The position numbers and the translations under genes were made by a program. A stretch of DNA of 58,981 nt from an uncultured Pelagibacteraceae bacterium (GTDB taxonomy: Bacteria > Pseudomonadota > Alphaproteobacteria > Pelagibacterales > Pelagibacteraceae): contig CACNXU010000002.1 of assembly GCA_902624585.1 (NCBI GenBank), positions 1-58,981 of the forward strand, read 5' to 3'. A model generated the notes under the pieces. It was given only the letters and a program-made list of their open reading frames with translations. It did not search any database and had not been told where the DNA came from. Shown piece after piece: positions 1-15,481 of the stretch (within the stretch, counting starts at the first letter, position 1; each line of letters begins with the position of its first letter).

Positions 1-77
1 AAATATCATAATAAAAGTTGATAATTCCATGTTGTATTTTTGCCCTTATAAACTAATATATTTAAATGCAGCTGGTT

Positions 78-1577
78 ATGAATAAATCAATACTACTTTT
101 GATTGTGGTTTTTTTTTTGCATTTTCAACCATCGTATTCCGAAAACTTTAATTCAGATATTAGGATTATCAGAGCAGAAATTAACAGAGATAATTTAACT
201 GAAGCAATCAATAAATTAAAAAAAATAAAAATTACAAACGAAAATGAACAAGAAAAAATTGATCTTTTATTTGGCGATATATACTTAAAGATAAATAAAC
301 TTGATAAAGCTGAGGAATTTTATCAAAAAAACTTTTTTACATCTAACGAAGATATAGAAGCCTTAACATTTATAGGTTTTGCAGAAGTAAGACTAGCTCA
401 AGGTAAAATTAATGATGCAATTAAATTTGCAGAACAATCAATTAAAATTAATTCAAACAATATAAGACCAAAAATAATTTTAGCTATTGCTAAAACTAGA
501 ATTGGAGAGGGAAAAGAAAGCATAAAAATCTTAAATGAATTGTACGACAATAGAAAAGATGATGAAGTGGCTCTTGCAATTTCTGACTATTACATTGCTT
601 TTGATGATACAACGCAAGCAATACAAATATTAGAAGAATTTATAAAAAGAGACCCTAAAAATATCAAAGTTTTAAATCAATTAGCTAACCTTCATTTATT
701 CAGTGGAAATAAAGATAAAGCAATTGAGTATAAAATAATTGTTTATAAATATCATAAGTTTAATCGTAATAAAAAAAAACAAAATCAAGCTAAAGCATGG
801 ATATTGTCAGTAAATCCAAATTATTTTGACAAACCAATAAAAGTTAAAAAAAAGGAAAAAGAAAAACAAAAAGAATATGAAGAAGAGGAAATTTCAAATT
901 ATGATGAAAATAAAATAACACCTATTTATGAAGAATTTGCTTTTGCACCAAATGGGCATGGTAGTGGTTTTATAGTTGGAGAAGGTAAATATGTAATAAC
1001 TAATCATCATGTGATTGAGGGTGCTAAAAAAATAGCTGTAAGGAATGGTACAGGAAAAGTAACTGAAGCAACTGTAGCTGCTTTTTCAAAAGATTATGAC
1101 TTAGCAATACTAGAACTTACTACACCCTATCCTAAAAGTTTCTCTATAGACTCTAAAAGTTTTGAAACACCAAAAGCTGGTGATGATGTTATTAGTATTG
1201 GTTATCCTGGTATAGGTATAACATTTGAACAACCCACAATTACACAAGGAATTATTAGTAAGGTTTTTGATGACGAAATGGGAATCTTTTTAACTACGGC
1301 AGCAATAAATGCAGGAAACAGTGGAGGTCCATTATTTAATCTAAATGGTAAATTAGTTGGTGTAAGTTTTGCGGCTTTAGATAAAAAAAAATGGTTAGAT
1401 GAAATGGGACAAATTCCAACAGACATGGGATATGCTATTAAAAGCAATATGATTAAAAAAGTTTTTGAACATAAACAAAGTGTTCCTGTTAAATCAGCTA
1501 AATTTAATAAAGCAAAACTATATGAAAAAATGCTTCCAAGTATAGCCTTGGTAGTAGTATTACTTGATGAAAATTAA
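78..1577 (+). CDS. Exported TPR-repeat protein with C-terminal trypsin-like (S1C/HtrA-type) serine protease domain
   Basis: N-terminal hydrophobic signal (MNKSILLLIVVFFLHFQPSYS); TPR-like helices; triad motifs TNHHVI (His), YDLAILEL (Asp), GNSGGPLF (Ser). ORF track starts at 66, but the ATG at 78 places the signal peptide better. Confidence 0.88.
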   Translation: MNKSILLLIVVFFLHFQPSYSENFNSDIRIIRAEINRDNLTEAINKLKKIKITNENEQEKIDLLFGDIYLKINKLDKAEEFYQKNFFTSNEDIEALTFIGFAEVRLAQGKINDAIKFAEQSIKINSNNIRPKIILAIAKTRIGEGKESIKILNELYDNRKDDEVALAISDYYIAFDDTTQAIQILEEFIKRDPKNIKVLNQLANLHLFSGNKDKAIEYKIIVYKYHKFNRNKKKQNQAKAWILSVNPNYFDKPIKVKKKEKEKQKEYEEEEISNYDENKITPIYEEFAFAPNGHGSGFIVGEGKYVITNHHVIEGAKKIAVRNGTGKVTEATVAAFSKDYDLAILELTTPYPKSFSIDSKSFETPKAGDDVISIGYPGIGITFEQPTITQGIISKVFDDEMGIFLTTAAINAGNSGGPLFNLNGKLVGVSFAALDKKKWLDEMGQIPTDMGYAIKSNMIKKVFEHKQSVPVKSAKFNKAKLYEKMLPSIALVVVLLDEN

Positions 1578-2365
1578 TGATTAAGAAATTAATTTTAATT
1601 TTTTTATTAATAATAACTCCTTTAAAAGCAGAAATAGTTACCGAGAAAGGAAAACATAGACATACAGGTAACGTTTCAAATAATAAATCATGTAAAATTG
1701 CTGAACAAAAAGCTAAAAAAAATGCAATAATCAAATCAATAGGACAAACAATATCTTCTGATGTTGTTTCAAACTGCTCTGAGGTTGATGGTGAATTTGA
1801 ATGTGAAAGAAATCAATTATCATTATTTGAATTAAATGGTGTAATCACTTTTTCAAAAAGAGTTGGTAGACCAAATTATGGAGAAGAACTTGGTAGTGAA
1901 GGAATATTTTTCTGTGAGGTAACTATTAGGGCTAATGTAGAACCAGTAAAAAAAAACTTAGATCCTACGTTTCAATTTGATGTAAAACTTAATCAAGAGA
2001 TATTTCGATCAGGTGAAAACATGGAAATCGAAATAAATACATCAAAAAAAATGTATATGACTATTTTTCAATGGCTCCCCTACGGAGGTAAGAAATTCAA
2101 TATAATTACAAAAATATTTCCAAATAAGGAATATAACAAAAATATAAATAATTTAATTGACGGACAGTTGGTATTAAAATATCAGACCTATTTTCCTGAA
2201 GAAATCAAAGAGAAAAAGGTTGATGAATATTTAATATTTGTAGCTTCAGAAAAAGATATTAATTGGCTGAAAAATTATTCACAAATTGAGAGTTTAAAAA
2301 GAGAATTTACAAAAACAAACATCTTGATGGAAAATCATTATTCTGGTTATATGTTGATTAAATGA
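1577..2365 (+). CDS. Exported DUF4384-like protein
   Basis: Signal peptide; C-terminal region (FDVKLNQEIFRSGENMEIEINTSKKMYMTIFQW...IFPN...) resembles DUF4384; start overlaps the stop of the upstream gene. Confidence 0.65.
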   Translation: MIKKLILIFLLIITPLKAEIVTEKGKHRHTGNVSNNKSCKIAEQKAKKNAIIKSIGQTISSDVVSNCSEVDGEFECERNQLSLFELNGVITFSKRVGRPNYGEELGSEGIFFCEVTIRANVEPVKKNLDPTFQFDVKLNQEIFRSGENMEIEINTSKKMYMTIFQWLPYGGKKFNIITKIFPNKEYNKNINNLIDGQLVLKYQTYFPEEIKEKKVDEYLIFVASEKDINWLKNYSQIESLKREFTKTNILMENHYSGYMLIK

Positions 2366-3624
2366 TATCTAAAAATATATCAAAATTACTAATAGTAATT
2401 TTTTCAGTATTTATATTAAGCATTTCAAGCTTAAATTATTCATACGCCGACAATCACCTTTCAAAAAAAGAAATAATAAAAGAACTTAAAAAAGAAATTA
2501 CTGATTTAGGTGGTACACCAGTTAAAAGAAAGCATTTACTGTCTTCACTTCAAAAATGGATAGATGAATTAAAATTACAATTAGAAAAATTGAAAAAAGT
2601 TGAAGCATTAAAAGCTGAACTTAATAAAGAATTAGAAGATTTAGGGGAAACTGTAGAAAGCAAAGAGAATAAAGAAATTGAGGCTGATGAGCAAATTATT
2701 GCCTTAAGAAAACAGATTGAAGAAGTTAAAGCTAAGAAAAAAGCTGCTGAAGAGAAAAAGAAGAAAGATGCTAAGATTGCAGTAGCTATTGAGATGCTTA
2801 AAGATGAGCTTGCAGCTTTGGGTGAAGAACCAATAATTGACACTAGCGATATAGATTCAGACGAGGATATCAAAGCTCTTAAAAAACAAATAAAAGATAT
2901 TAAAGAAAAAAGAAAAGCTGAAAAAGCTGAAGCTGAAAAAAAAGAAGCAGAGGAAAAGAAAGCTGAAGAGAAAAAACAAACAAGATTAGATGCTATTGAA
3001 AAGGTAAAAAAAGAAATTTTATTTATGGGTGAAACTCCAATGTCAGAATATGAGTTTACCACTGAAGATGAATATATAGCGGCGCTTAGAAAACAAGTTG
3101 AAGAAGTAAAAAAACTTAAAGAGGCAGAAGAATTAAAAATTAATGCTGAAATTCCTGAGTGGTATGTTTCAATGCCTGCAAGCTCTGAAACAATTATGTA
3201 TGCTAGAGGAAGTGCTATTTCAGCAGATCTAGATAATTCAGAACAAAGAGCTGTTGAAAATGCTTTAATTAAATTATCTACACAAATGCAAAACCGAATT
3301 AGCAGCAAAACTAATTTAGTTATAAAAGAAGCGGGTGTTGATGCAGATCTAACTTTAAAAACTGAAATGCAAAGAATTTCTAATGTAGTAGTAAAAGATG
3401 CAACTATCAGAGGTTACAAAATTTTTAAAACAAAAATGGCTGCGATAGCAGATGGTAAATATAGAACTTTTGTTGTAATAGAGTTCCCTGTAAGTCTTGC
3501 TTATAAAAACTTTATAGCTGAAATAGATAATAGTTTAAGTGTTAAAGCGGAAGTTAGTAAACTAAAAAATACAGATGCTTTTAAAGAACTTGAGCAGTAT
3601 GTTGCTGAATTCACTGGCGCTTAA
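2362..3624 (+). CDS. Exported coiled-coil repeat protein with LPP20-like C-terminal domain
   Basis: Signal peptide; four K/E-rich repeats; C-terminus IPEWYVSMPASSETIMYARGSAISADLDNSEQRAVENALIKLSTQM resembles LPP20-family domains; ATGA overlap with preceding ORF. Confidence 0.65.
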   Translation: MISKNISKLLIVIFSVFILSISSLNYSYADNHLSKKEIIKELKKEITDLGGTPVKRKHLLSSLQKWIDELKLQLEKLKKVEALKAELNKELEDLGETVESKENKEIEADEQIIALRKQIEEVKAKKKAAEEKKKKDAKIAVAIEMLKDELAALGEEPIIDTSDIDSDEDIKALKKQIKDIKEKRKAEKAEAEKKEAEEKKAEEKKQTRLDAIEKVKKEILFMGETPMSEYEFTTEDEYIAALRKQVEEVKKLKEAEELKINAEIPEWYVSMPASSETIMYARGSAISADLDNSEQRAVENALIKLSTQMQNRISSKTNLVIKEAGVDADLTLKTEMQRISNVVVKDATIRGYKIFKTKMAAIADGKYRTFVVIEFPVSLAYKNFIAEIDNSLSVKAEVSKLKNTDAFKELEQYVAEFTGA

Positions 3625-3657
3625 TAAATCAATTTTTTATTTGCTTAATAAAACTTT

Positions 3658-4599
3658 TTAATTTAAAAGTTTGCTTTTTGCTCGCTCATACTCTTCTTTA
3701 TCTAAAACGCCTTCGTCATATAATTTTTTTAAATTTTTGATTTGTGTTGCAATACCTGGTTCAGAATTAATTAAATGATTATCACCATTGATAATAATTA
3801 CTTCATCTAAATCAAGTTTGTGATGATCTTTAGCTTTCCATTGAATCTCAAACTCTTTGTGTCGTTTTGCTGACAGAGAAACAAAATCATCAATAAACTT
3901 TTTAAACTTTGGATGGTCATTAATATTTGTCCTATGATACTCACTTGACTCTTCGGTAAAATATTTTTCTTTTGGGCCGCCATAAGCAACTGGGTTGATA
4001 AAATAGTAAACACCTGGACCATTATCAGTCACAACTGGGGCAAAATATTCATGAGTAGCTACTAATAAAATTTTAGGTTTAGTAATATTGTTTTCATTTA
4101 TCCATTTTCTCAATACAGGCCTTATTCCTCCAACATCATCAGGATCATCAGGATAATTCATTTCTTTATCAAAATCTATATGTCTAATTCTAAAACAATT
4201 TGTAGAAGTGCCTTTTAGAAATAATTTGGCATAATAATATTCTGGTCTCAGAGTGCAACTATCGTACTCTCCTCTTTTATAATAATGATTCAATTCTTTT
4301 GCGAGATAACCAAGATATTTTCCACCTGTTCTCATTTCGCACATTCTCATTAGTGATTTGAATAATCTTCCTTCTTTAAGTACAAAACTTTTGCAAGAGT
4401 ACCCAAACCCACCATACCACCATGAACTTTGTTTAATGTATTGCCATTTACCAGCTGGTAAATCTATCTCCAATTTTTTCCATTTGATGTTTCCTTCATA
4501 AAAATCGCCTTTTATAAATCTTGTTTTTGCACTTACCTCTTGATTAGAAAATAATACTAAACAAAATAAAATAAGAAAAATTTTTGTAAGTTTATACAT
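3658..4599 (-). CDS. Exported hypothetical protein with C-terminal SHOCT-like motif
   Basis: Signal peptide; C-terminus QIKNLKKLYDEGVLDKEEYERAKSKLLN matches the SHOCT pattern. Confidence 0.7.
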   Translation of the reverse strand: MYKLTKIFLILFCLVLFSNQEVSAKTRFIKGDFYEGNIKWKKLEIDLPAGKWQYIKQSSWWYGGFGYSCKSFVLKEGRLFKSLMRMCEMRTGGKYLGYLAKELNHYYKRGEYDSCTLRPEYYYAKLFLKGTSTNCFRIRHIDFDKEMNYPDDPDDVGGIRPVLRKWINENNITKPKILLVATHEYFAPVVTDNGPGVYYFINPVAYGGPKEKYFTEESSEYHRTNINDHPKFKKFIDDFVSLSAKRHKEFEIQWKAKDHHKLDLDEVIIINGDNHLINSEPGIATQIKNLKKLYDEGVLDKEEYERAKSKLLN

Positions 4600-4669
4600 A
4601 TAACATCTTTAACTTTCTATCGTAGATAATATATCTATTTAACTTATAATTTTATAATTAAATTTTGTC

Positions 4670-4740
4670 AAAAAAAACTAATTAATACTTTATCTGAATT
4701 TCCTAACAAAGATAAGCTACGAAACTCTAACGAAGAATGT
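4670..4740 (-). pseudogene. Decayed remnant of a caspase-gene 3' end
   Basis: Minus-strand translation ...SLEFRSLSLLGNSDKVLISFF* aligns with the caspase C-termini ...NPSLAGDPDKVLISYR*; the DNA actaattaatactttatctgaatttcc parallels actaattaaaaccttatctggatcacc of the adjacent intact gene. Confidence 0.6.
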
Positions 4741-5949
4741 TTATCTATAACTAATTAAAACCTTATCTGGATCACCTGCCAGTGATGGATTTTGTTCTCT
4801 GCCTAACTCAAGAGCTTTATTTGACACATTTTGATCCATATAGGAAAGTAATTCACTATTAGTTATTTTTTTATCTTTATTTAAATCAGCATTACCTTCA
4901 AGACCTTTCATTAAATAATAACTAAATATTCCATGCTCAGCGCCATCTAATCCAGATGATATTTGATCCAGCTGAGATGCAGAGAAAATTGTAAAATTTT
5001 CTGGTATTCCATTTTGTTCATCAGCAATTATCCTAATGGGTCTTGCAGATGCTAATAAAGTTTGTTCATCCCTACTAATTCCGCTGAAACAAGTGTCAAA
5101 AAACATGGTAACTGATTTAGGCTTTAAATCTAAAATTGTTTGAAATAATTCGTTCCTAGATAAAGCAGTTCTATTTAACAAATCAGGATCACTATCTTGA
5201 GAAAGCAAAAAAAGTTCTTCACCGTTGGTAGACGCTAAACCATGACCAGCAAAAAATAAAAATAATTCTGTGCTATCTCGTTTAATTTTACCAGGTAACC
5301 ATTTATTTATAGCAGTTATTGTGCCAACCAGGTCAGCATTATCATTAATTAAAAGCTTTAAATTACTATCAGATATACCAAATACATTATTTAAATATTC
5401 ATAAAAATATTTTGCATCCATATTGGCGAAATCCGCTGAGGGTGCTTTTTCATATTTATCGATACCAATGACAATACCAACTTTATCATTAGTATTTATT
5501 GATTTAATTTTGGATGGATTTAAAGGTTCTAAAGATTTTGTTAATTTTTTATCTTTAGAATTAATAACTATATTTATTATTTTAGGACTTGATTTATTTC
5601 CCCATTGGTCAATTGCAACAATTTCTATCTGCTCATCAACTGGACTAAATCTTTTTATTTTAAAAATGCCATTATTAGCCTCTATTGTATCATTATCTAA
5701 TATTACAAATAATTTTTCTGATTCATCTAACAATTTTCCTTCAATAACGTACGAGCTAGATTCTACGGTTATAGTATCATTTATTAAAATTTTAGGAGGA
5801 TTTGAGTCTTTTGACTCATTAACTAACTCAATTTTTTTTTCATTATCTTGATTGTTTGAATTTTTTTTCTTTTTAATCCATTTGGTATCAGCAAAGGATA
5901 CCAACATAATATTAAAAAAAAATATAATTAAAAAAAATAATTTAAACAT
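4741..5949 (-). CDS. Exported caspase-like protease (peptidase C14 / orthocaspase type), paralog C
   Basis: Signal peptide; Ig-like segment; VGIVIGIDKYEKAP, FLFFAGHGLAS (catalytic His), TMFFDTCFSG (catalytic Cys), EF-hand-like loop DLNKDKKITNSE. Confidence 0.88.
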   Translation of the reverse strand: MFKLFFLIIFFFNIMLVSFADTKWIKKKKNSNNQDNEKKIELVNESKDSNPPKILINDTITVESSSYVIEGKLLDESEKLFVILDNDTIEANNGIFKIKRFSPVDEQIEIVAIDQWGNKSSPKIINIVINSKDKKLTKSLEPLNPSKIKSINTNDKVGIVIGIDKYEKAPSADFANMDAKYFYEYLNNVFGISDSNLKLLINDNADLVGTITAINKWLPGKIKRDSTELFLFFAGHGLASTNGEELFLLSQDSDPDLLNRTALSRNELFQTILDLKPKSVTMFFDTCFSGISRDEQTLLASARPIRIIADEQNGIPENFTIFSASQLDQISSGLDGAEHGIFSYYLMKGLEGNADLNKDKKITNSELLSYMDQNVSNKALELGREQNPSLAGDPDKVLISYR

Positions 5950-5951
5950 TT

Positions 5952-7010
5952 TTAATTTAAATTTCTAAATACATTTGTATAAAATCCAACTTCAAATAAA
6001 ACACTATTAGACTGTTCTTCACAAGTAATATTAATTTCATTTCCGTTAATATACATAAAATAATCACTAGTTACTTTTGTATTTTTTGCAGGCAATCGTA
6101 ACGCTCTATCTGAAATATTATTTAATAATTTTAACAAATAATTAAAAAGTTTATTTTTTTCATCAATACATTTATCTTTGTTTCCAAAATATTTTGCAGC
6201 CCTTAAACCTATTATATTATATTTATTGTCATTATATTTCATTGAAATAGCTAACTCATTATAAATTTCTAAATCATCCAGGTATTTTATAGAATATAAA
6301 TTTTTATTATGGTTCATTCTTATTTTTTTAAATGTCTCTATTTTACTTTCTGGAATATGTTTTAGTAAACTTTCATTAATTGTAAAATTTTCTATTTCAA
6401 AATCATTTAATTTATTATCCTCTACTATTTTTAAAGCATCTTTTGATAACCATTTATTAAATTTTCTAGAGTTTAATCCAATAGTAAATAGAAATCGTGG
6501 GCTATTACCCCACTTAACTGAAGGATCATTTTTAAAATCATAGCATTGAACTTTTATTAGGTCATCGTTATTTAAGATAATTGTGTCAGAGTCATATTTT
6601 CCATAATCAATTATTTTTTCTTTTCCATCTATTACATTTTTTATGTCGTTAGTAAAATTCGAATAAATTTCATTTAAAACATTCTTTTGTTTTTTTAAAC
6701 AAACCTCATAGTTTTTAATTTTCTGGTGTCCATAAATTGCTTGAATTAGTTTTTGTTCATCTTCCCATTCAAACGATAAAGTTATTTCCTCATATGTTTT
6801 TAAATTGTAATTAATTTTATCAAGAACTATTGAAGCATATTTTTTGTCTGGGTAATTAAAACTTATTGGAACATTATTAATATTATTAATATGCTTTGAA
6901 ATTTTTTCATTTAATGAATAATTTTCAATTTCAAATGAATTAGAATAAACAGTTTCGCTTATAAAAAATGAACATAAAATAATATTAATTAATGTAATTT
7001 TAAATTTCAT
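5952..7010 (-). CDS. Exported hypothetical protein with two copies of a two-Cys repeat domain
   Basis: Signal peptide; internal duplication, SFEIENYSLNEKISKHI...EVCLKKQ...VQCYDF versus DFEIENFTINESLLKHI...DKCIDEK...ITCEEQ. Confidence 0.75.
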   Translation of the reverse strand: MKFKITLINIILCSFFISETVYSNSFEIENYSLNEKISKHINNINNVPISFNYPDKKYASIVLDKINYNLKTYEEITLSFEWEDEQKLIQAIYGHQKIKNYEVCLKKQKNVLNEIYSNFTNDIKNVIDGKEKIIDYGKYDSDTIILNNDDLIKVQCYDFKNDPSVKWGNSPRFLFTIGLNSRKFNKWLSKDALKIVEDNKLNDFEIENFTINESLLKHIPESKIETFKKIRMNHNKNLYSIKYLDDLEIYNELAISMKYNDNKYNIIGLRAAKYFGNKDKCIDEKNKLFNYLLKLLNNISDRALRLPAKNTKVTSDYFMYINGNEINITCEEQSNSVLFEVGFYTNVFRNLN

Positions 7011-7012
7011 AA

Positions 7013-7600
7013 TTAATCCATATATTTTAGCCAGTTGGAGTATTCACCAGATTTAAAAACGACACTGAGTCTATCTTTACTTCTTGTATCCTTTTTTGAA
7101 AAATCATAACAAGTAATATGCATTTTTGAATTTTTACTTGTATAAAATGTTACATCTTTCAAATAACTATCACCATTTGGATAAGATTTATTTTTTACTA
7201 TCCCTGTCTCTAACTTTTCAGATGTTAATAGTGTTTTTTCTAAATCTTCTACTATGAATTCTTGTTGTCTAAAACATTCATCTATTTTATTTTTAAAAAA
7301 TTTTCTGGCTTTTATTTGTTTTATTTTATACCTGCTATCTCCTGATTTAAAATATAGAATAACAACATCATATGTATCATTGTTCTTTTTTTTGTAGATT
7401 TTTTGATATTCATTAATTTTTTTTTTTCCAAATTTTAAATCACTTTTTTTCTTTTCGATATATTGTTGACTATAAATTTTTAGCAAACTGTCTCCTATAG
7501 ATAGACCCTCAACTTCAAAATCATTTATATCATCCGCTTTAACACTAATTAGCATTCCAAAACAAAGTAGCATGAACAAATATGCTAACAAGCGTTTCAT
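7013..7600 (-). CDS. Exported hypothetical protein, single copy of the same two-Cys domain
   Basis: Signal peptide; NDFEVEGLSIGDSLLKI...DECFRQQ...ITCYDF matches the repeats in the ORF at 5952-7010. Confidence 0.75.
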   Translation of the reverse strand: MKRLLAYLFMLLCFGMLISVKADDINDFEVEGLSIGDSLLKIYSQQYIEKKKSDLKFGKKKINEYQKIYKKKNNDTYDVVILYFKSGDSRYKIKQIKARKFFKNKIDECFRQQEFIVEDLEKTLLTSEKLETGIVKNKSYPNGDSYLKDVTFYTSKNSKMHITCYDFSKKDTRSKDRLSVVFKSGEYSNWLKYMD

Positions 7601-10122
7601 TATCTATAAGTTATCAAAACTTTGTCAGGATCACCAGCTAGAGAAGGATTTTGCTGTCTACCAAGCTCTGCTGCTTTTTGTGATACATTTTCATCCATAT
7701 AAGCAAGAAGTTCACCATTTGTAATCTTATTATCATTGTTTAGATCTGCATTACCTTCCAACCCTTTCATTAAAAAGTATGAAAAGATACCGTGTTTAAC
7801 TTCTTTTAAACCTGATGAAATTTGATCAAGTTGTGAGGCTGAAAATATTGTAAAATTTTTTGGTGTACTTTTATTATTTGCAATTATTCTTACTGGTCTA
7901 GCAGACGCAAGTAGAGTTTGTTCGTCTCTAGAAACTCCACTGTAACAAGTGTCTAAAAATATCGTTACATTTTTTGGTGAGTATTTAAGTATGGTATCGT
8001 GTAGCTCAGTTCTTGATATTCCAGTTCTTGCTAACAAATCACTATCACCATCTTGTGGTAGAATGTATAGCTCTTCACCATCTAGAGAAGCTAAGCCATG
8101 TCCTGCAAAATAAACTATTAATTCTGTTTTATTTTTCTTTATTTTTCCAGGTAACCATTTGTTTAAAGCACCTAGTGTATCAATTAAGCTTGCCTGATCA
8201 TTTACAAGTAATTTTATATTTTCATCTTTAACACCAAAGACATTTTTTGAATATTCATAAAAAAATTCGGCGTCTAAATTAGCAAAGCTTGCCTTTGGGG
8301 TTTTTTGATAATTTTCTATACCTATTATCAAAGCAACTCTGTCTTCTATTTCTTTAATTTTATTAACTAATGGATTAAGTTTATCTAGTTTTTTAGCTAA
8401 TTTTTTTTTCTTTTCTATTTTGACACTAATTGATTTTGGTTCTGATCTATTTCCCCATTTATCAATCGCTACAATTTTTATTTCTTCATCAACAGGGCTA
8501 AACCTATTAATTTCAAAATTTCCCTCTTTTGTTTCAGAGAGAACACCATCCACTTCAATATAAATTGGACCAGAAGAATTATCTGTAACCATCCCTTTTA
8601 TTGAGTAGCTACTGTTTTTAAATGTAAATTTATCATCAATTTTAATTATTGGAGGATTTTTATCTTCAAGTTTTCCTGGTTTAAATTCATCTTGTTTCTT
8701 AACAACTTGAGTTTCGATTGGCTTGTTGCTTTGAACATAAAGTTGACTGAAATCAAATAGCGGTAATTGTTTTGATTTTTCTTGATTGATAGAAATTTTT
8801 TTAATTGAATTATAATAATCTTCTAATAACCAAAAATCTTTTTGAAGAATTTTTTGTCTTTTTTTCCATTCATCAGTATTTTTTTCATATTTGATCAAAT
8901 CAGTAATATCACTTTGATGTCCTGAGTCATGATCTATTAAATATTCAACATATTCTTTTTGCTCAACTAAATACGCTATTCTAAGTTCCATTTTAGAACT
9001 AACTATTTTTGGAGTAATTTCTAGTGATTTTACATCAGAGTCATCATAATCATAACTTTCATTAAAATTTTTATGCGATACATAATCTATTCTAATTTTT
9101 TCATTAGGTTTAGACTCTTTAATCAATTGAACAAATCGAAAATGATTATTTGAAGGAACATTATTCACTTTTATAATTATGTCATTTTTTTCTAAATTTG
9201 TTTCAATAGCAGGTAAATTCTCCTGGAATCCAACTATTTGAATCCCTTTTTCATTTGGAAGATTTTTAGTTTCAATTCCAATCATTAATCTTACACCATA
9301 AATGTGTGAAACGTCTTTTTTATGAAGATTAATTTCTTTGACATCTCCTTTGTCATTAAAAAAGACATTAGCAAATTTAGAATCTGGATCAAAAACTTTA
9401 CAATTTTCATAAATACCAAAAACTTCTTGCTTTGCTCTTTTTTTATTTTTTTCTAGATACCTAACTAAACCATGTTTGATGCAATCATTCTCATAATAGG
9501 CATCAATTATATAAGGAGTTTTATTTTCGTCCTCTAACTCTCCACTGAAGCTATTAAATCCAGTTGCTTGTATTAAAGGTTTGGTACTATCTTGATCATC
9601 AAATTTTTGATCTTCTTTACTTGCAATAAGTTTATCTTTACCAGTTAATTTTAAATATTGTTCATATGTAATTTTATTTTTTAAAAAAACATTTTCTTTG
9701 ATGTAATCAATTTCAAATTCTTTTGCTGGTCTGAATGTAGTTTTATTTATTATTGGTAGGCCATTCGAATCTTTTTTTGGTTTATTTTTTTCTATATATT
9801 CATATGTTTCATAACTTACGTCTCCATTAATTATCCACGCTCCATCTCTCAAAGTTCCATTATGAAAATATCCAGCAAAAATACCTCCATCAACAAATCT
9901 CATTATTCCATAACCATTTTGTAATATTAATTTTTTTTGTCCAACGTATGTAACACCATCTTTTCTTGGTTTTTGTTTTTTTTTATTTTTAATATTTTTA
10001 ATTTTTTCTAAATGTGAGAGCTCTGACGAATTTATATAAAGATTCTCTGCGTAGAGTAATTTTGAATAAAACAAAGAGAATATAAAAACAATTACTATTT
10101 TTATTAATTTAAATTTATTCAT
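7600..10122 (-). CDS. Exported MORN-like/PDZ-like/caspase-like multidomain protease, paralog B
   Basis: Signal peptide; MORN-like GYGIMRFVDGGIFAGYF; PDZ-like GIQIVGFQENLPAIETNLEKNDIIIKVNNVPSNNHFRFVQLIKESKPNEKIRIDY; YFAGHGLAS and FLDTCYSG dyad; EF-hand-like loop DLNNDNKITNGE. Confidence 0.88.
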   Translation of the reverse strand: MNKFKLIKIVIVFIFSLFYSKLLYAENLYINSSELSHLEKIKNIKNKKKQKPRKDGVTYVGQKKLILQNGYGIMRFVDGGIFAGYFHNGTLRDGAWIINGDVSYETYEYIEKNKPKKDSNGLPIINKTTFRPAKEFEIDYIKENVFLKNKITYEQYLKLTGKDKLIASKEDQKFDDQDSTKPLIQATGFNSFSGELEDENKTPYIIDAYYENDCIKHGLVRYLEKNKKRAKQEVFGIYENCKVFDPDSKFANVFFNDKGDVKEINLHKKDVSHIYGVRLMIGIETKNLPNEKGIQIVGFQENLPAIETNLEKNDIIIKVNNVPSNNHFRFVQLIKESKPNEKIRIDYVSHKNFNESYDYDDSDVKSLEITPKIVSSKMELRIAYLVEQKEYVEYLIDHDSGHQSDITDLIKYEKNTDEWKKRQKILQKDFWLLEDYYNSIKKISINQEKSKQLPLFDFSQLYVQSNKPIETQVVKKQDEFKPGKLEDKNPPIIKIDDKFTFKNSSYSIKGMVTDNSSGPIYIEVDGVLSETKEGNFEINRFSPVDEEIKIVAIDKWGNRSEPKSISVKIEKKKKLAKKLDKLNPLVNKIKEIEDRVALIIGIENYQKTPKASFANLDAEFFYEYSKNVFGVKDENIKLLVNDQASLIDTLGALNKWLPGKIKKNKTELIVYFAGHGLASLDGEELYILPQDGDSDLLARTGISRTELHDTILKYSPKNVTIFLDTCYSGVSRDEQTLLASARPVRIIANNKSTPKNFTIFSASQLDQISSGLKEVKHGIFSYFLMKGLEGNADLNNDNKITNGELLAYMDENVSQKAAELGRQQNPSLAGDPDKVLITYR

Positions 10123-12914
10123 CTATAACTAATTAAAACCTTATCTGGATCTCCTGATAACATTGGTTCTTGAGATCTGTTTTGAGAAAATGCTTCTTGA
10201 GTAACATTATTTTTTAAATATGAAATTAATTCACCATTAGTGATTTTTTTATCTGAATTTTCATCTGCTTTACCTTCTAAACCTTTCATTAAGTAATATG
10301 AAAAAATACCGTGTTCAGCTTCATTTATACTTCCTGAAGTTTGATCATAGTTTGAAGCTGTGAATATTGTAAAATTATTTGGTGTATCTTGTTCATCAGC
10401 AACTATTCTAACTGGTCTTAATCCTGCTATTAGCATTTGCTCAGATCTTGTTTGGCCACTGTAACAAGTATCAAAGAACATAGTTACTGATTTAGGATTA
10501 ACTTTATTTATAAGATCAAACATTTCAATTCTTGATAAAGCTGTATCTTCTAAAAGAATTGGATCACCGTTGTGAGGTAATATGTGTAAATCTTCTCCAT
10601 TATCAGATGCTAGACCGTGACCAGCAAAGAAAATATAAATATCTTTTTCTTTTCCTCTTGTTATCTGCGGCAGCCATATTTTAAGAGATTTTAATAATTC
10701 TCCCCTGGTTGCATCTTCATCAATTAAAACTTTCAAATTATTGTTAGGAATGCCCAAAGCTATGTTTGCATATGCCTTAAATGCCTTAGCGTCTCTATTT
10801 GCATAAGGTGCATCAATATTATTAAGGTTTTGATATTTCTCTATACCAATAATAATCCCTATCTTGTTATTATCTTTTTTGACTTTTATTTTACTAGGAT
10901 TTGGTTTCTCATAAGATCGAAGATCTGCTACCTGTTTAATTTTAACCTCAACATTAATTACTTTTTCAGATTTATTTTTCCATCTATCTATTGCAACAAT
11001 TTTTAATTGTTCTTTCGAGTCAATTGCAAAACCTTCAAATTCAAATTCACCATTTTTGTTAACTTTAATAGGTCTGCCATCTATTTCTAAAAATAGTTTA
11101 CTTTTATCTTTCACCTTACCTTTTAAAGTATATGCTTGACTATCAACTGTAATATTTTGAGCTACCTCTATTACAGGTGCATCATTATCAATATCTTTGT
11201 TCTCTGGCTTAAATTCCTCTTGTTTGGGTTTTTTTGCTACTTTATTCTTGGACTTTATTGTTGTTTCTTGTTTGGCAATTTGGGTTTTATTACTTAAAAC
11301 ATAAAACTGGTCAAAATCTAGTTCTGGTAATTTATCAGTTTTTAATTCAGCAATTGATAAATAATATTTATATAAACTATTAAAATCTTTTTTTAATAAA
11401 TCCTGTCGTTCTTGCCACTCTTTAGTATTTTCTTTTAAAAATACTTCATCAGGTAGAATACTTTCTCTGCCGCCTGAAGAAAAATGTTTATAAATTGTTT
11501 CAAGATATTTTTTTTCTTTCGGAAAATAAATTAATCTAAGTGTAGTTTTTGTATTTTCATTTTTAGGAGTAATATAAGTAGTTTTTATATCTGATACATT
11601 GTAATCAAATTTATCAGTTATTTTGTCTGAAGGAACATAATCAATTTTTATTTTTTGATTTGTTGAAGCCTCTTGAACTAATTTTATGAAATTTTGCATG
11701 CTATTTACTTGAAAATTATTAATTCTAATTATTATATCATTTACATTAAGACTGCTTTTCTCTGCAGGATAATCTTTAAGAATACCTTTGACAATTATAC
11801 CATTATTATTTTCTGTGTCTTGGATATCTAGGCCGATATATTTTTGCTTTCCATAAATATGAGTAACATCTTTCTTATCTAAAATAACCGTAGAGACATT
11901 TCCTTTTTCATCAAAATAAATTCTTGCAAGTTTTGAATTTGGGCCCAACCTATTACAATCTGAATATAAACCAACAATACGTTGGCTTACCATTTCGGTT
12001 TTAGGACGGATATAGGAGATTGAACCATATAACGGACAATCATTTTTATAGTATGTTGCTAAAACAACTGGTTTAGTTTTTTTATCGTCTAACCAATGAC
12101 TGCTAGTAATAAAACCATTTTTAATTTCTTTTCCATTAGTCACTTTCTGTGTTTCACTTGCTTCTGCTTTAGCGATTTCTGTTCCGTAAGAATTGTTACT
12201 AATTATTTTTTTAAGTTCATCTTCATTAATAAATTCTTCTTTAGCAAACTTAGGATATTTTTTATCATTCGAGTAGATTGTTTTTCTTTTAATAATTTTT
12301 CCTGAAACAGTTTTAACTACATCTACTCTTTTATCAGATTTATATAAAAAATATCCATAACCATGTCTATCTGCCCATTTAAATTGTCCTATATATTTAT
12401 TCCCACTAGGATATGTCATTATCCCCTTTCCATCAGGGTGTCCATAACTCAACTCACCAAAGTATATATTTCCATTTTTATAAACTTTTTTAACGAACGT
12501 ATTATTATTGTGATCTGTTTTAGCGATTTGGGTCGTTTGCTTTAATAATGATTTTTTGTGTCTTATTTTTGAAAATTTCTTATCTTTTAATTTCCACCTT
12601 TTTATATGTTGTTCAGCAACTGGTATTTTATGATCACTCAAGTTTGTTTTAAGTAAATAAGGCCATTTATCTGTGATCTCTCTATATTTTTTTGGATGTT
12701 TGTCCTCATATACAAATATTGAACATAAATTTTCTAAATTATTCACTTCTGTAGCCCAACCAGATTTACTTGTTCCTACAAATACTGTGCCATTGCCAAC
12801 ATCTTGAAAACATATAAAATTTTTGTCATAAGAATACTTTGCTGAATTAGCATTAACACCAAACATTAACCCCAAACCAAGAACGATGAACAGATATACT
12901 AGTAAGCGTTTCAT
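10119..12914 (-). CDS. Exported MORN/PDZ-like/caspase-like multidomain protease, paralog A
   Basis: Signal peptide MKRLLVYLFIVLGLGLMFGVNA; MORN repeats NGNIYFGELSYGHPDGKGIMTYPSGNKYIGQF; PDZ-like region; FFAGHGLAS and FFDTCYSG dyad; EF-hand-like loop DENSDKKITNGE; 4-bp overlap with paralog B. Confidence 0.88.
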   Translation of the reverse strand: MKRLLVYLFIVLGLGLMFGVNANSAKYSYDKNFICFQDVGNGTVFVGTSKSGWATEVNNLENLCSIFVYEDKHPKKYREITDKWPYLLKTNLSDHKIPVAEQHIKRWKLKDKKFSKIRHKKSLLKQTTQIAKTDHNNNTFVKKVYKNGNIYFGELSYGHPDGKGIMTYPSGNKYIGQFKWADRHGYGYFLYKSDKRVDVVKTVSGKIIKRKTIYSNDKKYPKFAKEEFINEDELKKIISNNSYGTEIAKAEASETQKVTNGKEIKNGFITSSHWLDDKKTKPVVLATYYKNDCPLYGSISYIRPKTEMVSQRIVGLYSDCNRLGPNSKLARIYFDEKGNVSTVILDKKDVTHIYGKQKYIGLDIQDTENNNGIIVKGILKDYPAEKSSLNVNDIIIRINNFQVNSMQNFIKLVQEASTNQKIKIDYVPSDKITDKFDYNVSDIKTTYITPKNENTKTTLRLIYFPKEKKYLETIYKHFSSGGRESILPDEVFLKENTKEWQERQDLLKKDFNSLYKYYLSIAELKTDKLPELDFDQFYVLSNKTQIAKQETTIKSKNKVAKKPKQEEFKPENKDIDNDAPVIEVAQNITVDSQAYTLKGKVKDKSKLFLEIDGRPIKVNKNGEFEFEGFAIDSKEQLKIVAIDRWKNKSEKVINVEVKIKQVADLRSYEKPNPSKIKVKKDNNKIGIIIGIEKYQNLNNIDAPYANRDAKAFKAYANIALGIPNNNLKVLIDEDATRGELLKSLKIWLPQITRGKEKDIYIFFAGHGLASDNGEDLHILPHNGDPILLEDTALSRIEMFDLINKVNPKSVTMFFDTCYSGQTRSEQMLIAGLRPVRIVADEQDTPNNFTIFTASNYDQTSGSINEAEHGIFSYYLMKGLEGKADENSDKKITNGELISYLKNNVTQEAFSQNRSQEPMLSGDPDKVLISYR

Positions 12915-13050
12915 TGTATTACTTTACCAAATGATTAAAGGATTTTATAGGACAACTTGAAGTAAACTTGAAGCGACATTAAAATTTATAAAAAAAACAG
13001 TTCTGTTTTTTTGTTGAATTTTACAATTATACTTATAAAACCTTGCTCAC

Positions 13051-13140
13051 GGAGAGATGGCTGAGCGGTTGAAAGCACCGGTCTTGAAAACCGGCAAAGG
13101 GGCAACTCTTTCCTGGGTTCGAATCCCAGTCTCTCCGCCA
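13051..13140 (+). tRNA. tRNA-Ser(TGA)
   Basis: Class II cloverleaf ggagagatggctgagcgg...cttgaaa...ggttcgaatcc...tctccgcca; anticodon TGA; CCA encoded. Confidence 0.95.
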
Positions 13141-13404
13141 CTACTTTTTACCATACTCAAAATTTTTAAATAATTCTGTTACATTATTCTCCTCAATAAC
13201 AATATCAGTCTCTAGGTCATTTAAGAAATTATATAAATTTGAATCATCTATATTTAACAATTTTTCCAGTTTAAATAAATCATCATCACTTAACTTATCA
13301 ATATACGTTTCAGTAAAAGCTCCTAAAAGTTTATCCATTTCTTTAGTGCCCCTGTAATTTGATCGATAAATAATTTTTTTTTTTAATTCATCTATATTCA
13401 TCAT
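13141..13404 (-). CDS. sdhE: FAD assembly factor SdhE (DUF339) family protein
   Basis: Motifs IIYRSNYRGTKEMDKLLGAF and LSDDDLFKLEKLLNIDDSNLYNFL. Confidence 0.8.
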   Translation of the reverse strand: MMNIDELKKKIIYRSNYRGTKEMDKLLGAFTETYIDKLSDDDLFKLEKLLNIDDSNLYNFLNDLETDIVIEENNVTELFKNFEYGKK

Positions 13405-13426
13405 AATTAATAGAATATATTCGTTA

Positions 13427-15481
13427 TTGATGAATAATAAAACAAATTATGAATATTTATTGTCAGATTTAAGTGTTTTAAAAGGTGTAGGAGAAAAAAC
13501 TAAAAATTTATTAAAAAAGAAAAATATAAATAATTTATTCGATTTATTATGGAAACTTCCAAAATCTTATACTGACAGAAGTTTATCAGTAAAAATAAAA
13601 GATTTAAAAATTGGTGAAACTCAAACTGTAACTATTACACCACAAAAATATAACTTTCCAAGAGTAAGGAAATTACCAAATAAAGTTTTATGTAAGGATG
13701 AAACTGGTCAAATAGATTGTATTTTTTTTAATAGCTATGAAGGTTATGTAAAAAAAATATTACCTTTGGGTAAAGAAATTACTATTAGTGGTAAAATAGG
13801 TTATTTCAGGAATAAATATCAAATTACAAACCCAAAATACATTTCTGAGGATTCTTCGTTAATTAAAAAAACTCATAATAAATACTCATTAACAGAGGGT
13901 ATTACTGAAAAAATATATAATAAAATAATAAATCAAATTATTGAAAATTTACCTGAATTTGAAGAGTGGCATTCAAAACATATTTTGTCAAAATTTAAAA
14001 ATATTAGCTGGAATAATTCAATTAAAGAATTACATAAAGCTGAAAATATCGGAAATTTTAAATCAAATTTTTATCAAAGACTTGCCTTTGATGAAATATT
14101 TTCAACATTTCTTGTAAATTCAGAAATAAGAAAAAAAATAAGAAAAATTAAAAAAAAGAATAAAATTATTAATTTTAATAAGCAAAAATCAATAATAAAT
14201 AAGTTAGATTTCTCACTTACAAACGATCAAATTAAATCACTTAATGAGATAAATATAGATTTGAGCTCTTCAAACAAAATGTTTAGACTTTTGCAGGGAG
14301 ATGTTGGTAGTGGAAAAACAATAGTATCACTTTTGGGTGCAGTAAATACAGTAAACTCTGGATTTCAAGTTGCATTTATGGCTCCAACAGAAATTCTTGC
14401 AAGACAACATTTCAAACTTGCAAAGAAAATATTTCCTTCCTTTATCAATATAGAATTAATTTCTGGTAAATCTGAATATAAGGATAAAAAAGAAATACTT
14501 AAAAAATTAGAAAATAAAAAAATTGATATTGTTTTTGGAACACATGCTATATTTCAAAAAAAAGTAATTTTCAAAAAATTAGGACTAATAATCATAGATG
14601 AACAACATAAATTTGGTGTAAATCAAAGAAAGAAATTATCTGATAAAGGCGGAGTAGATTGTGATGTTCTATTGATGACAGCAACACCTATACCGAGAAC
14701 CTTAACTATGACTATCTATGGCGATATGGATATTTCCATAATTCGCGAAAAACCTAAAAATAGAAAACCAATTAAAACATATAGTAAATTGGATGCTAAG
14801 ATTGAGGATGTTTTAAAATTTATAAAAAAAGAAATACAAATGAATAATCAAATTTTTTGGGTGTGTCCTTTAATAGAAGAGTCGAAAAAATTAGATCATA
14901 CATCAGCGGTAAAGAAATTTGAATATCTTAAAAAAAAATTTCCCAATCAGGTATGTTTACTTCATGGTAAAACAGAATTAGATGAAAAAAACATTATACT
15001 TAGTAATTTCTTGCAAAATAAATTCAAAATATTAGTTTCCACAACAATAATTGAAGTAGGGATTGATTTTCCAAATGCAAATGTGATTGTAATTGAAAAT
15101 GCAAATAAATTTGGTCTCTCTCAACTTCATCAATTAAGAGGTAGGGTTGGACGTGGCGATAAAGATTCTACTTGTATACTAATGTTTAAATCTAATTTGA
15201 GTGATAATGCAAAAAAAAGAATTAAAATTTTGAAGGAAACAAATGATGGCTTTTTAATTTCTGAGGAAGATATGAAATTAAGAGGTTTTGGAGATATTTT
15301 AGGTTTTAAGCAAAGTGGAATTAAAATTTTCAAATTAGCTGATCCTATTCAAAACGAAGACCTTTTCGCACTCGCTGAAAAAGAGATGAGAAGAATTGAA
15401 AATTCTAGCGAAGATATAGGAAAGTTCAAACCTTTAATAAAATTATATGATAGAGCCGATATAATTAATGATATTGCTTAA
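13427..15481 (+). CDS. recG: ATP-dependent DNA helicase RecG
   Basis: Wedge domain; LLQGDVGSGKTIVSL, DEQHKFGVNQR, LLMTATPIPRTL, GRVGRGDKDSTCIL. Confidence 0.97.
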   Translation: MMNNKTNYEYLLSDLSVLKGVGEKTKNLLKKKNINNLFDLLWKLPKSYTDRSLSVKIKDLKIGETQTVTITPQKYNFPRVRKLPNKVLCKDETGQIDCIFFNSYEGYVKKILPLGKEITISGKIGYFRNKYQITNPKYISEDSSLIKKTHNKYSLTEGITEKIYNKIINQIIENLPEFEEWHSKHILSKFKNISWNNSIKELHKAENIGNFKSNFYQRLAFDEIFSTFLVNSEIRKKIRKIKKKNKIINFNKQKSIINKLDFSLTNDQIKSLNEINIDLSSSNKMFRLLQGDVGSGKTIVSLLGAVNTVNSGFQVAFMAPTEILARQHFKLAKKIFPSFINIELISGKSEYKDKKEILKKLENKKIDIVFGTHAIFQKKVIFKKLGLIIIDEQHKFGVNQRKKLSDKGGVDCDVLLMTATPIPRTLTMTIYGDMDISIIREKPKNRKPIKTYSKLDAKIEDVLKFIKKEIQMNNQIFWVCPLIEESKKLDHTSAVKKFEYLKKKFPNQVCLLHGKTELDEKNIILSNFLQNKFKILVSTTIIEVGIDFPNANVIVIENANKFGLSQLHQLRGRVGRGDKDSTCILMFKSNLSDNAKKRIKILKETNDGFLISEEDMKLRGFGDILGFKQSGIKIFKLADPIQNEDLFALAEKEMRRIENSSEDIGKFKPLIKLYDRADIINDIA

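Follow-up and report, generated by a model that had tools for sequence, protein, structure and literature searches.

A tRNA-bounded island of caspase and trypsin genes that looks like a mix-and-match protease system outside the cytoplasm of a Pelagibacteraceae bacterium

Genes and boundaries of the island

The window analyzed here, 58,981 nucleotides of contig CACNXU010000002.1 from an uncultured Pelagibacteraceae bacterium (assembly GCA_902624585.1), begins at a contig end, which cuts a gene island. Contig C27 (L019) probably carries the far end of this island together with a fourth caspase. All nine island open reading frames (9/9) were found at the coordinates given in the initial annotation. 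These genes are indeed adjacent, but they do not form a single operon, being organized as two converging transcription units and a separate SHOCT gene. The plus strand carries a conserved operon for a TPR-trypsin (66..1577), a DUF4384-like protein (1577..2365), and an LPP20 protein (2362..3624). On the minus strand are the genes for an apparently exported protein with SHOCT at its C terminus (3658..4599), caspase A (4741..5949), a two-copy R195 protein (5952..7010), a single-copy R195 protein (7013..7600), caspase B (7600..10122), and caspase C (10119..12914), with junctions as tight as originally described: overlaps of 4 bp at 10122/10119 and 1 bp at 7600, and 2-bp gaps at 7013/7010 and 5952/5949.

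Pfam returned the domains that had been proposed, namely Trypsin_2 with TPR (5e-27), LPP20 (2.8e-7), SHOCT (5.7e-9), PDZ, MORN, and Peptidase_C14 in two of the three reported caspases; the third, caspase C, is recognized by the NCBIfam model caspase_w_EACC1 (2.4e-15, below the model's cut-off). The DUF4384-like call fared less evenly, as the window protein scores 19.4 bits against a Pfam cut-off of 27, whereas its magnetospirillum orthologue (L157) exceeds that cut-off at 32.5 bits. The two "repeat-domain proteins" are both present but belong to one family, defined by an R195 domain of ~195 amino acids: 7013..7600 has one copy, and 5952..7010 has two, as indicated by BLAST matches of two of its regions to R195 paralogues.

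Beyond caspase C, a direct repeat, AACTTGAAG..AACTTGAAG (12954..12973, no strand assigned), is followed by an intact tRNA-Ser(TGA) (13051..13140, plus strand; ARAGORN), which serves as island boundary and attachment site, and by a conserved flank (13141..15481) of sdhE (13141-13404, minus strand; Pfam Sdh5 and synteny with relatives) and recG (13427-15481, plus strand; synteny with relatives). The site of insertion lies between this tRNA gene and rarD: sdhE, tRNA-Ser, and rarD are contiguous in the island-free genomes compared, and a 39-nt Ser half marks the far border on C27 near rarD. Such 39-nt tRNA halves bound cassettes, including small ones of 2.6-2.7 kb with one caspase gene each (L112), and 19 of 19 truncated copies end at position 39, the edge of the anticodon loop. 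Arrays of these cassettes provide a readable record of single-gene acquisition by streamlined genomes. Repeats comparable to the AACTTGAAG pair lie beside other tRNA halves, and the pair itself is a candidate integrase arm-type site. Searches with Pfam, NCBIfam, and PADLOC detected no integrase among the nine island genes. Tycheposons and related tRNA-integrating islands (PMC10872708) and the tRNA-Leu att sites of pelagiphages (PMC3861242) offer parallels in their tRNA-bounded insertions and partial tRNA copies, but cassettes of the island type are often small, carry no integrase of their own, and have copies that end exactly at the anticodon loop.

Contamination was rejected as a source of these observations because most of the related loci belong to assemblies of single cells (AG- records), the flanks of the island are native SAR11 genes, and the tRNA halves match the host tRNA. 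Common phage cargo was also considered; a scan of viral contigs gave only one distant caspase relative and no match to R195, integrase, or attachment junction, and therefore carriage of the system is not common among the contigs scanned.

The caspase family is rare in the genus (15/399 genomes), which disfavors a core housekeeping role. Its patchy presence and module turnover would suit an arms race, and the island could serve as an envelope defense against phages or other elements, in which contact with a phage or a damaged envelope would be detected through the modules, leaving the caspases to kill or block the cell. Consistent with such a role are the placement in tRNA insertion hot spots, the HEC-05/DUF262-like and Cas4-like proteins in a tRNA-Leu cassette (L064), an element of G325 that encodes an integrase, a primase, and RusA and adjoins the Ser half, and the recurrence of caspase and trypsin domains in conflict systems (PMC7159879). 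A hot spot, however, fits any flexible cargo equally well, the PADLOC models give only weak caspase and trypsin matches among the island genes, and the conflict-system caspases of PMC7159879 are mostly cytoplasmic or membrane-proximal, so that defense is a doubtful reading, if one with some claim to attention.

Constant caspase halves and variable N-terminal modules

The island caspases share a C-terminal half composed of an Ig-like and a metacaspase/paracaspase-like domain. In caspase A (Peptidase_C14 1.8e-12), almost no N-terminal module separates the signal peptide from the Ig-like domain (~5560-5802), which precedes the caspase domain (~4750-5493). Caspase B (C14 8e-14) interposes a module with a PDZ domain (~9082-9282; PDZ_2 2.2e-6) and a linker, and caspase C, a chimera of 931 aa, combines a signal peptide that is a shared leader (MKRLLVYLFIVLGLGLMF) with MORN (~12399-12464), PDZ (~11691-11849), Ig-like, and caspase domains.

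Active-site conservation in the constant half is strict. The p20 His-Cys dyad typical of metacaspases and orthocaspases (clan CD, C14) is present, and H236, C287, and the predicted S1 acids D178 and D285 (caspase A numbering) are invariant across 84 sequences. Both acids align with those of the metacaspase Yca1, the nearest solved chain by sequence, and cleavage after Arg/Lys is predicted. By fold, the nearest solved chains to caspase A (Foldseek; AF2 model pLDDT 86.5) are MALT1 and metacaspases. The paracaspase MALT1 shares the caspase fold, the predicted acidic S1 residues, and an Ig-like domain beside the caspase; the island enzymes differ in being bacterial, in having a signal peptide and no death domain, and in possessing just one Ig-like domain, immediately ahead of the caspase.

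That the island proteins are exported, as first proposed, is suggested by two types of evidence. Signal peptides, scored by a simple rule for n-, h-, and c-regions and not by SignalP, are predicted for 9/9 island genes versus 3/40 other genes of the window (Fisher p=1e-7). Natural fusions of caspases to ABC-transporter solute-binding domains also occur in related loci and, since these domains are normally periplasmic, further support caspase export.

Variation is concentrated at the N terminus. The 44 SAR11 caspases fall into 13 N-terminal groups, with up to 95% caspase identity alongside unrelated N termini, and caspase front halves have been swapped between genomes. The DNA of caspase C is itself chimeric, its 5' 572 nt being 91.8% identical to L057 and its 3' 1123 nt 92.0% identical to L125. 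All recognized modules, SBP_bac_8 (twice), OpuAC, PDZ, MORN, Sel1, and TPR, are binding or scaffold domains.

A constant caspase combined with a wide choice of other domains, those of periplasmic binding proteins among them, is also a property of the EACC1-caspase two-gene system (System 4 of Kaur et al. 2020, PMC7159879), and NCBIfam NF047832 matches all three window caspases, at 57-64 bits against a cut-off of 140 bits. By that logic the variable part would be read as an effector, and the caspase as a constant autoprotease that frees the N-terminal module as functional cargo. Polymorphic toxins use caspases as processing peptidases (PMC3482391), and the linker between module and caspase is rich in Lys (24% versus 14% and 10% in the adjoining domains). 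Yet none of the recognized modules is a toxin, caspase A has almost no module to release, and the caspase is C-terminal, the position in which PMC3482391 places the toxin and not the processing versions; release of cargo is thus unlikely. The EACC1 systems differ further in having the caspase N-terminal and the variable domains C-terminal, whereas the island enzymes, apparently exported, have the reverse order, and in their 5' neighbor, an EACC1 domain with a single TM helix, as opposed to the TPR-trypsin/DUF4384/LPP20 operon. No EACC1 domain was matched among the nine island proteins (Pfam, NCBIfam).

The trypsin operon and the R195 family

The TPR-trypsin, which has a predicted signal peptide, shows the trypsin fold and H-D-S triad of HtrA/Deg proteases (H315, D345, S419, kept in 11/11 orthologues); conservation of this triad and of the caspase dyad among orthologues favors the initial assignment of both as proteases. 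Profile comparison places it nearest to Do/DegS, although it scores below every HtrA model cut-off, has no PDZ match in Pfam, and carries its TPR N-terminally. The second protein of the operon, DUF4384-like at its C terminus, appears from its sequence pattern to be LPP20/FlgT-like at its N terminus; a comparison of 89 loci, which overlap in part, found it in 44. The third combines a coiled coil with its LPP20 domain and has an orthologue in G325 that is 97% identical. These two partners resemble, we presume at the domain level, FlgT, FlgO, and FlgP of the flagellar outer-membrane ring, and also LPP20/GNA1162-like lipoproteins; outside SAR11, LPP20-domain and GNA1162-like partners make up a comparable gene trio. 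The island partners differ from both in being linked to trypsin and caspases.

The trypsin was found in 11/399 genomes of the genus, all 11 among the 15 caspase-family carriers (Fisher p=1.5e-18) and always on the caspase-bearing contig, so the two halves of the island belong together, as had been supposed. Of the three outcomes that would have counted against the initial reading, none was seen: the halves co-occur, signal peptides are predicted (by the simple rule), and orthologues retain the catalytic residues. The linkage recurs outside SAR11, in SAR116, magnetospirilla, and Comamonadaceae. Among 37 non-SAR11 caspase loci, one or more operon partners lie within 8 kb in 12, and all three do so in 5; in the majority no partner was found within that distance, with contig ends limiting the search. 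Several add a GNA1162-like TPR lipoprotein. Two SAR11 loci, L133 and the one represented by both L098 and L139, encode a caspase and the DUF4384-LPP20 pair with no trypsin there, and the trypsin may therefore be dispensable. Trypsin, p20, and DUF4384 are also found in single chains of alphaproteobacterial proteins, the pseudo-orthocaspases of PMC6426788; those have a degenerate QC dyad, whereas the island has an intact dyad and encodes the domains in separate genes.

The kinship of the trypsin with Do/DegS, and solute-binding modules that could sense osmolytes or polyamines, raise the prospect of envelope quality control or of a nutrient or stress response, with an HtrA-like protease and caspases remodeling periplasmic proteins through substrate-binding modules and no role in conflict. 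The rarity and patchiness of the system in the genus, its mobile-element site, and the fast turnover of its modules make this account improbable.

The tandem R195 genes encode an unnamed domain, apparently exported, that is more common in caspase genomes (7/15 versus 1/45, p=1e-4) and occurs in divergent tandem arrays, with 13 matches in G301. Alignment identifies two conserved Cys, compatible with a periplasmic location, that are present in the single-copy protein (AF2 pLDDT 88.6). Such arrays might be inhibitors or immunity proteins in a surface or interbacterial conflict in which the caspases strike neighboring cells. A constant caspase domain needs no divergent immunity proteins, however; R195 was undetected in 8/15 caspase genomes, and no dedicated secretion system appeared among the window genes scanned. 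We regard this as very unlikely. Foldseek matches of R195 to PsbP-like proteins were weak (E 3e-3, TM about 0.3) and were not taken as an assignment.

A proposed sensor-gated protease system

Taken as a whole, the island looks like a mix-and-match protease system outside the cytoplasm, and we tentatively propose, with a little less than even confidence, that it encodes sensor-gated proteases with a shared trypsin/LPP20 partner. Each caspase would be exported by Sec, after which its N-terminal module would bind a ligand or envelope target, the modules thereby acting as sensors. The Lys-rich linker and Ig-like domain may couple the module to the constant domain, a predicted Arg/Lys cutter. The operon would supply a common partner, its TPR-trypsin activating the caspase or amplifying the response and its two LPP20/DUF4384 proteins providing an envelope scaffold. 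A triggered module could then switch the caspase on, via dimerization and/or cleavage, so that envelope or periplasmic proteins are cut, and new specificities would arise from module swapping and from caspase cassettes added at tRNA anticodon loops. A bolder version is a periplasmic innate-immunity-like repertoire of exported caspases with swappable recognition modules, all sharing a single trypsin/LPP20 hub, for which a trans-acting integrase would gather small cassettes at tRNA anticodon loops. We give this version little credence; if true, it would place such a repertoire in bacteria whose genomes are among the smallest of any free-living cells.

Putatively exported caspases with intact active-site residues, exchangeable modules, and a trypsin/LPP20 operon offer a concrete, testable case of regulated extracytoplasmic proteolysis in abundant ocean bacteria. 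No description of this gene set was found in the openly accessible journal literature searched. Natural fusions also bring components of the system together in single proteins: one joins the N terminus of the LPP20 protein to a caspase (L136 7365-9074), and another combines Sel1, trypsin-like, Ig, and caspase domains (L149 3231-6392).

Nine putatively exported proteins and their distribution in the genus

Domain searches on the nine genes of the island at 66-12914 identify the plus-strand products as a TPR-trypsin, a DUF4384-like protein, and an LPP20 protein, and the minus-strand products as three caspases, two of which carry PDZ/MORN modules, a protein with a SHOCT domain, and two members of R195, an unnamed exported domain family of about 195 residues. 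The coordinates and tight junctions of the initial annotation match exactly, and signal peptides, which it had claimed for all nine proteins, are recognized by a simple n/h/c-region rule in 9 of 9 island genes versus 3 of the 40 other window genes (p = 1e-7).

The two protease types are also associated in other genomes of the genus. In a sample of 399 genomes, with the caspase family counted by strong matches, 15 carry caspases. The trypsin is found in 11 of these 15 and in none of the remaining genomes, and it lies on caspase contigs (p = 1.5e-18), so that the comparison across SAR11 genomes proposed earlier finds the trypsin always in company with a caspase. The three plus-strand genes (trypsin, DUF4384-like, and LPP20) are retained together beside caspases at most of these loci. 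The trypsin gene is absent at two loci, L098 (6948-12936) and L133 (5160-11542), though the DUF4384-LPP20 pair and a caspase are present.

R195 genes are found in 7 of the 15 caspase genomes versus 1 of 45 other genomes. The window encodes one copy of the domain at 7013-7600, for which no Pfam or PHROG match was found, and two copies at 5952-7010; a single genome, G301, contains 13 matches. At locus L102 (4499-11531), about ten divergent R195 genes lie in tandem, each with its own signal peptide.

A constant caspase half and variable N-terminal modules

The C-terminal half of the caspases consists of an Ig-like domain followed by the caspase itself (AF2 model, pLDDT 86.5), with a fold nearest to those of MALT1 and metacaspases; by sequence, the nearest solved chain is the yeast metacaspase Yca1. 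Loss of catalytic residues in orthologues, raised earlier as a potential objection, is not observed: H236 and C287 (numbered as in the caspase at 4741-5949), along with D178 and D285, are unchanged in 84 of 84 sequences, and the H-D-S triad of the trypsin (66-1577) is complete in 11 of 11. D178 and D285 line up with positions of Yca1 that we take, as in metacaspases and MALT1, to form the acidic S1 site. The caspase family also conserves a loop resembling an EF-hand, DxNxDxxITxxE.

The N-termini of 44 complete SAR11 caspases fall into roughly 13 groups, a number that is approximate because the 19-member group is joined partly via common linker or repeat sequence. Pfam modules at this end include SBP_bac_8 (two proteins), OpuAC, MORN, and PDZ in SAR11, and Sel1, TPR, and MORN in caspases from other organisms. 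In the gene at 10119-12914, the 5' 572 nucleotides are 92% identical to one genome and the 3' 1123 nucleotides 92% identical to another, and the DNA encoding signal peptides (54-66 nucleotides) is 83-93% identical between genes whose mature parts are unrelated. The caspase linkers are rich in lysine (24%) and plausibly represent a putative cleavage region. A further array of constant leader and variable body is found at locus L058 (3524-6027), where five tandem genes just downstream of tRNA-Leu share near-identical pilin-like N-termini (GFTLIELLVVVAIIGILAAVGVVAYSGYT) and differ in their bodies.

Proposed function and related systems

Natural fusions, in which trypsin-like parts and LPP20 parts are each joined to the same caspase, together with published single chains combining trypsin, p20, and DUF4384 (PMC6426788), support the view that the trypsin, the LPP20/DUF4384 proteins, and the caspases form one functional unit. 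The favored interpretation is of sensor-gated proteases outside the cytoplasm, in which the trypsin would activate the caspases and the LPP20/DUF4384 proteins would provide a scaffold. At locus L149 (3231-6392), an Ig-caspase carries a fused trypsin-like domain that is probably inactive, judging from the replacement of GNSGGP by GNGGGP, and probably serves as a binding module.

The nearest described system is EACC1-caspase, a two-gene conflict system that likewise pairs a constant caspase with variable modules (PMC7159879), but the island system differs from it in orientation and partner gene and scores below the model cut-off, and is therefore not classed as a member.

A scan of named genomes yielded 73 loci. 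Many come from single cells of uncultured Pelagibacteraceae, and relatives at 40-47% identity occur in SAR116, magnetospirilla, Oxalobacteraceae, and Comamonadaceae, among other groups. Thirty-seven loci were counted as lying outside SAR11; 12 of them have one or more operon partners within 8 kb, and 5 have the full set of three. Several of these loci have an extra TPR lipoprotein between the DUF4384 and LPP20 genes, GNA1162-like in those examples above the Pfam cut-off. The contig at L118, titled Crocinitomicaceae RS467, agrees in gene layout and gene lengths with L114, from Pelagibacteraceae AG-914-P22, with nearly equal profile scores, and is for these reasons probably a misassigned SAR11 contig.

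Insertion site and cassettes bordered by tRNA halves

In island-free relatives (among those listed, L203-L208, L210, and L216-L218), sdhE, tRNA-Ser, and rarD are adjacent; in carriers, tRNA-Ser and rarD flank the island. The window itself starts at a contig end. Contig C27 (L019) is probably the remainder of the island, across a putative join: it carries rarD and a Ser half together with a SHOCT-like protein and a caspase that would be the island's fourth, in a gene order matching that of locus L103.

Partial copies of tRNA-Ser/Leu, 19 in all, share one end point: position 39, where the anticodon loop ends on its 3' side. Arrays of small cassettes occur at L112 (3870-9273), L023 (10625-14934), L026 (5364-12338), L064 (9047-13378), and L066 (4936-9456), bordered by exact 39-nucleotide 5' halves of tRNA-Ser(TGA) or tRNA-Leu(TAA) that end at the anticodon-loop edge. 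At L112, the stretch from tRNA-Ser to rarD contains two Ser halves, which separate off two cassettes of about 2.6-2.7 kb with one caspase each. Cargo across the arrays includes caspases, R195, DUF262-like proteins, and unknown exported proteins, and no integrase was recognized in most of their cassettes. An element with an integrase (phrog_1), a primase, and a RusA resolvase (L057, 1061-8369) adjoins a tRNA-Ser half beside a caspase in genome G325 and is a possible source of integrase working on the cassettes.
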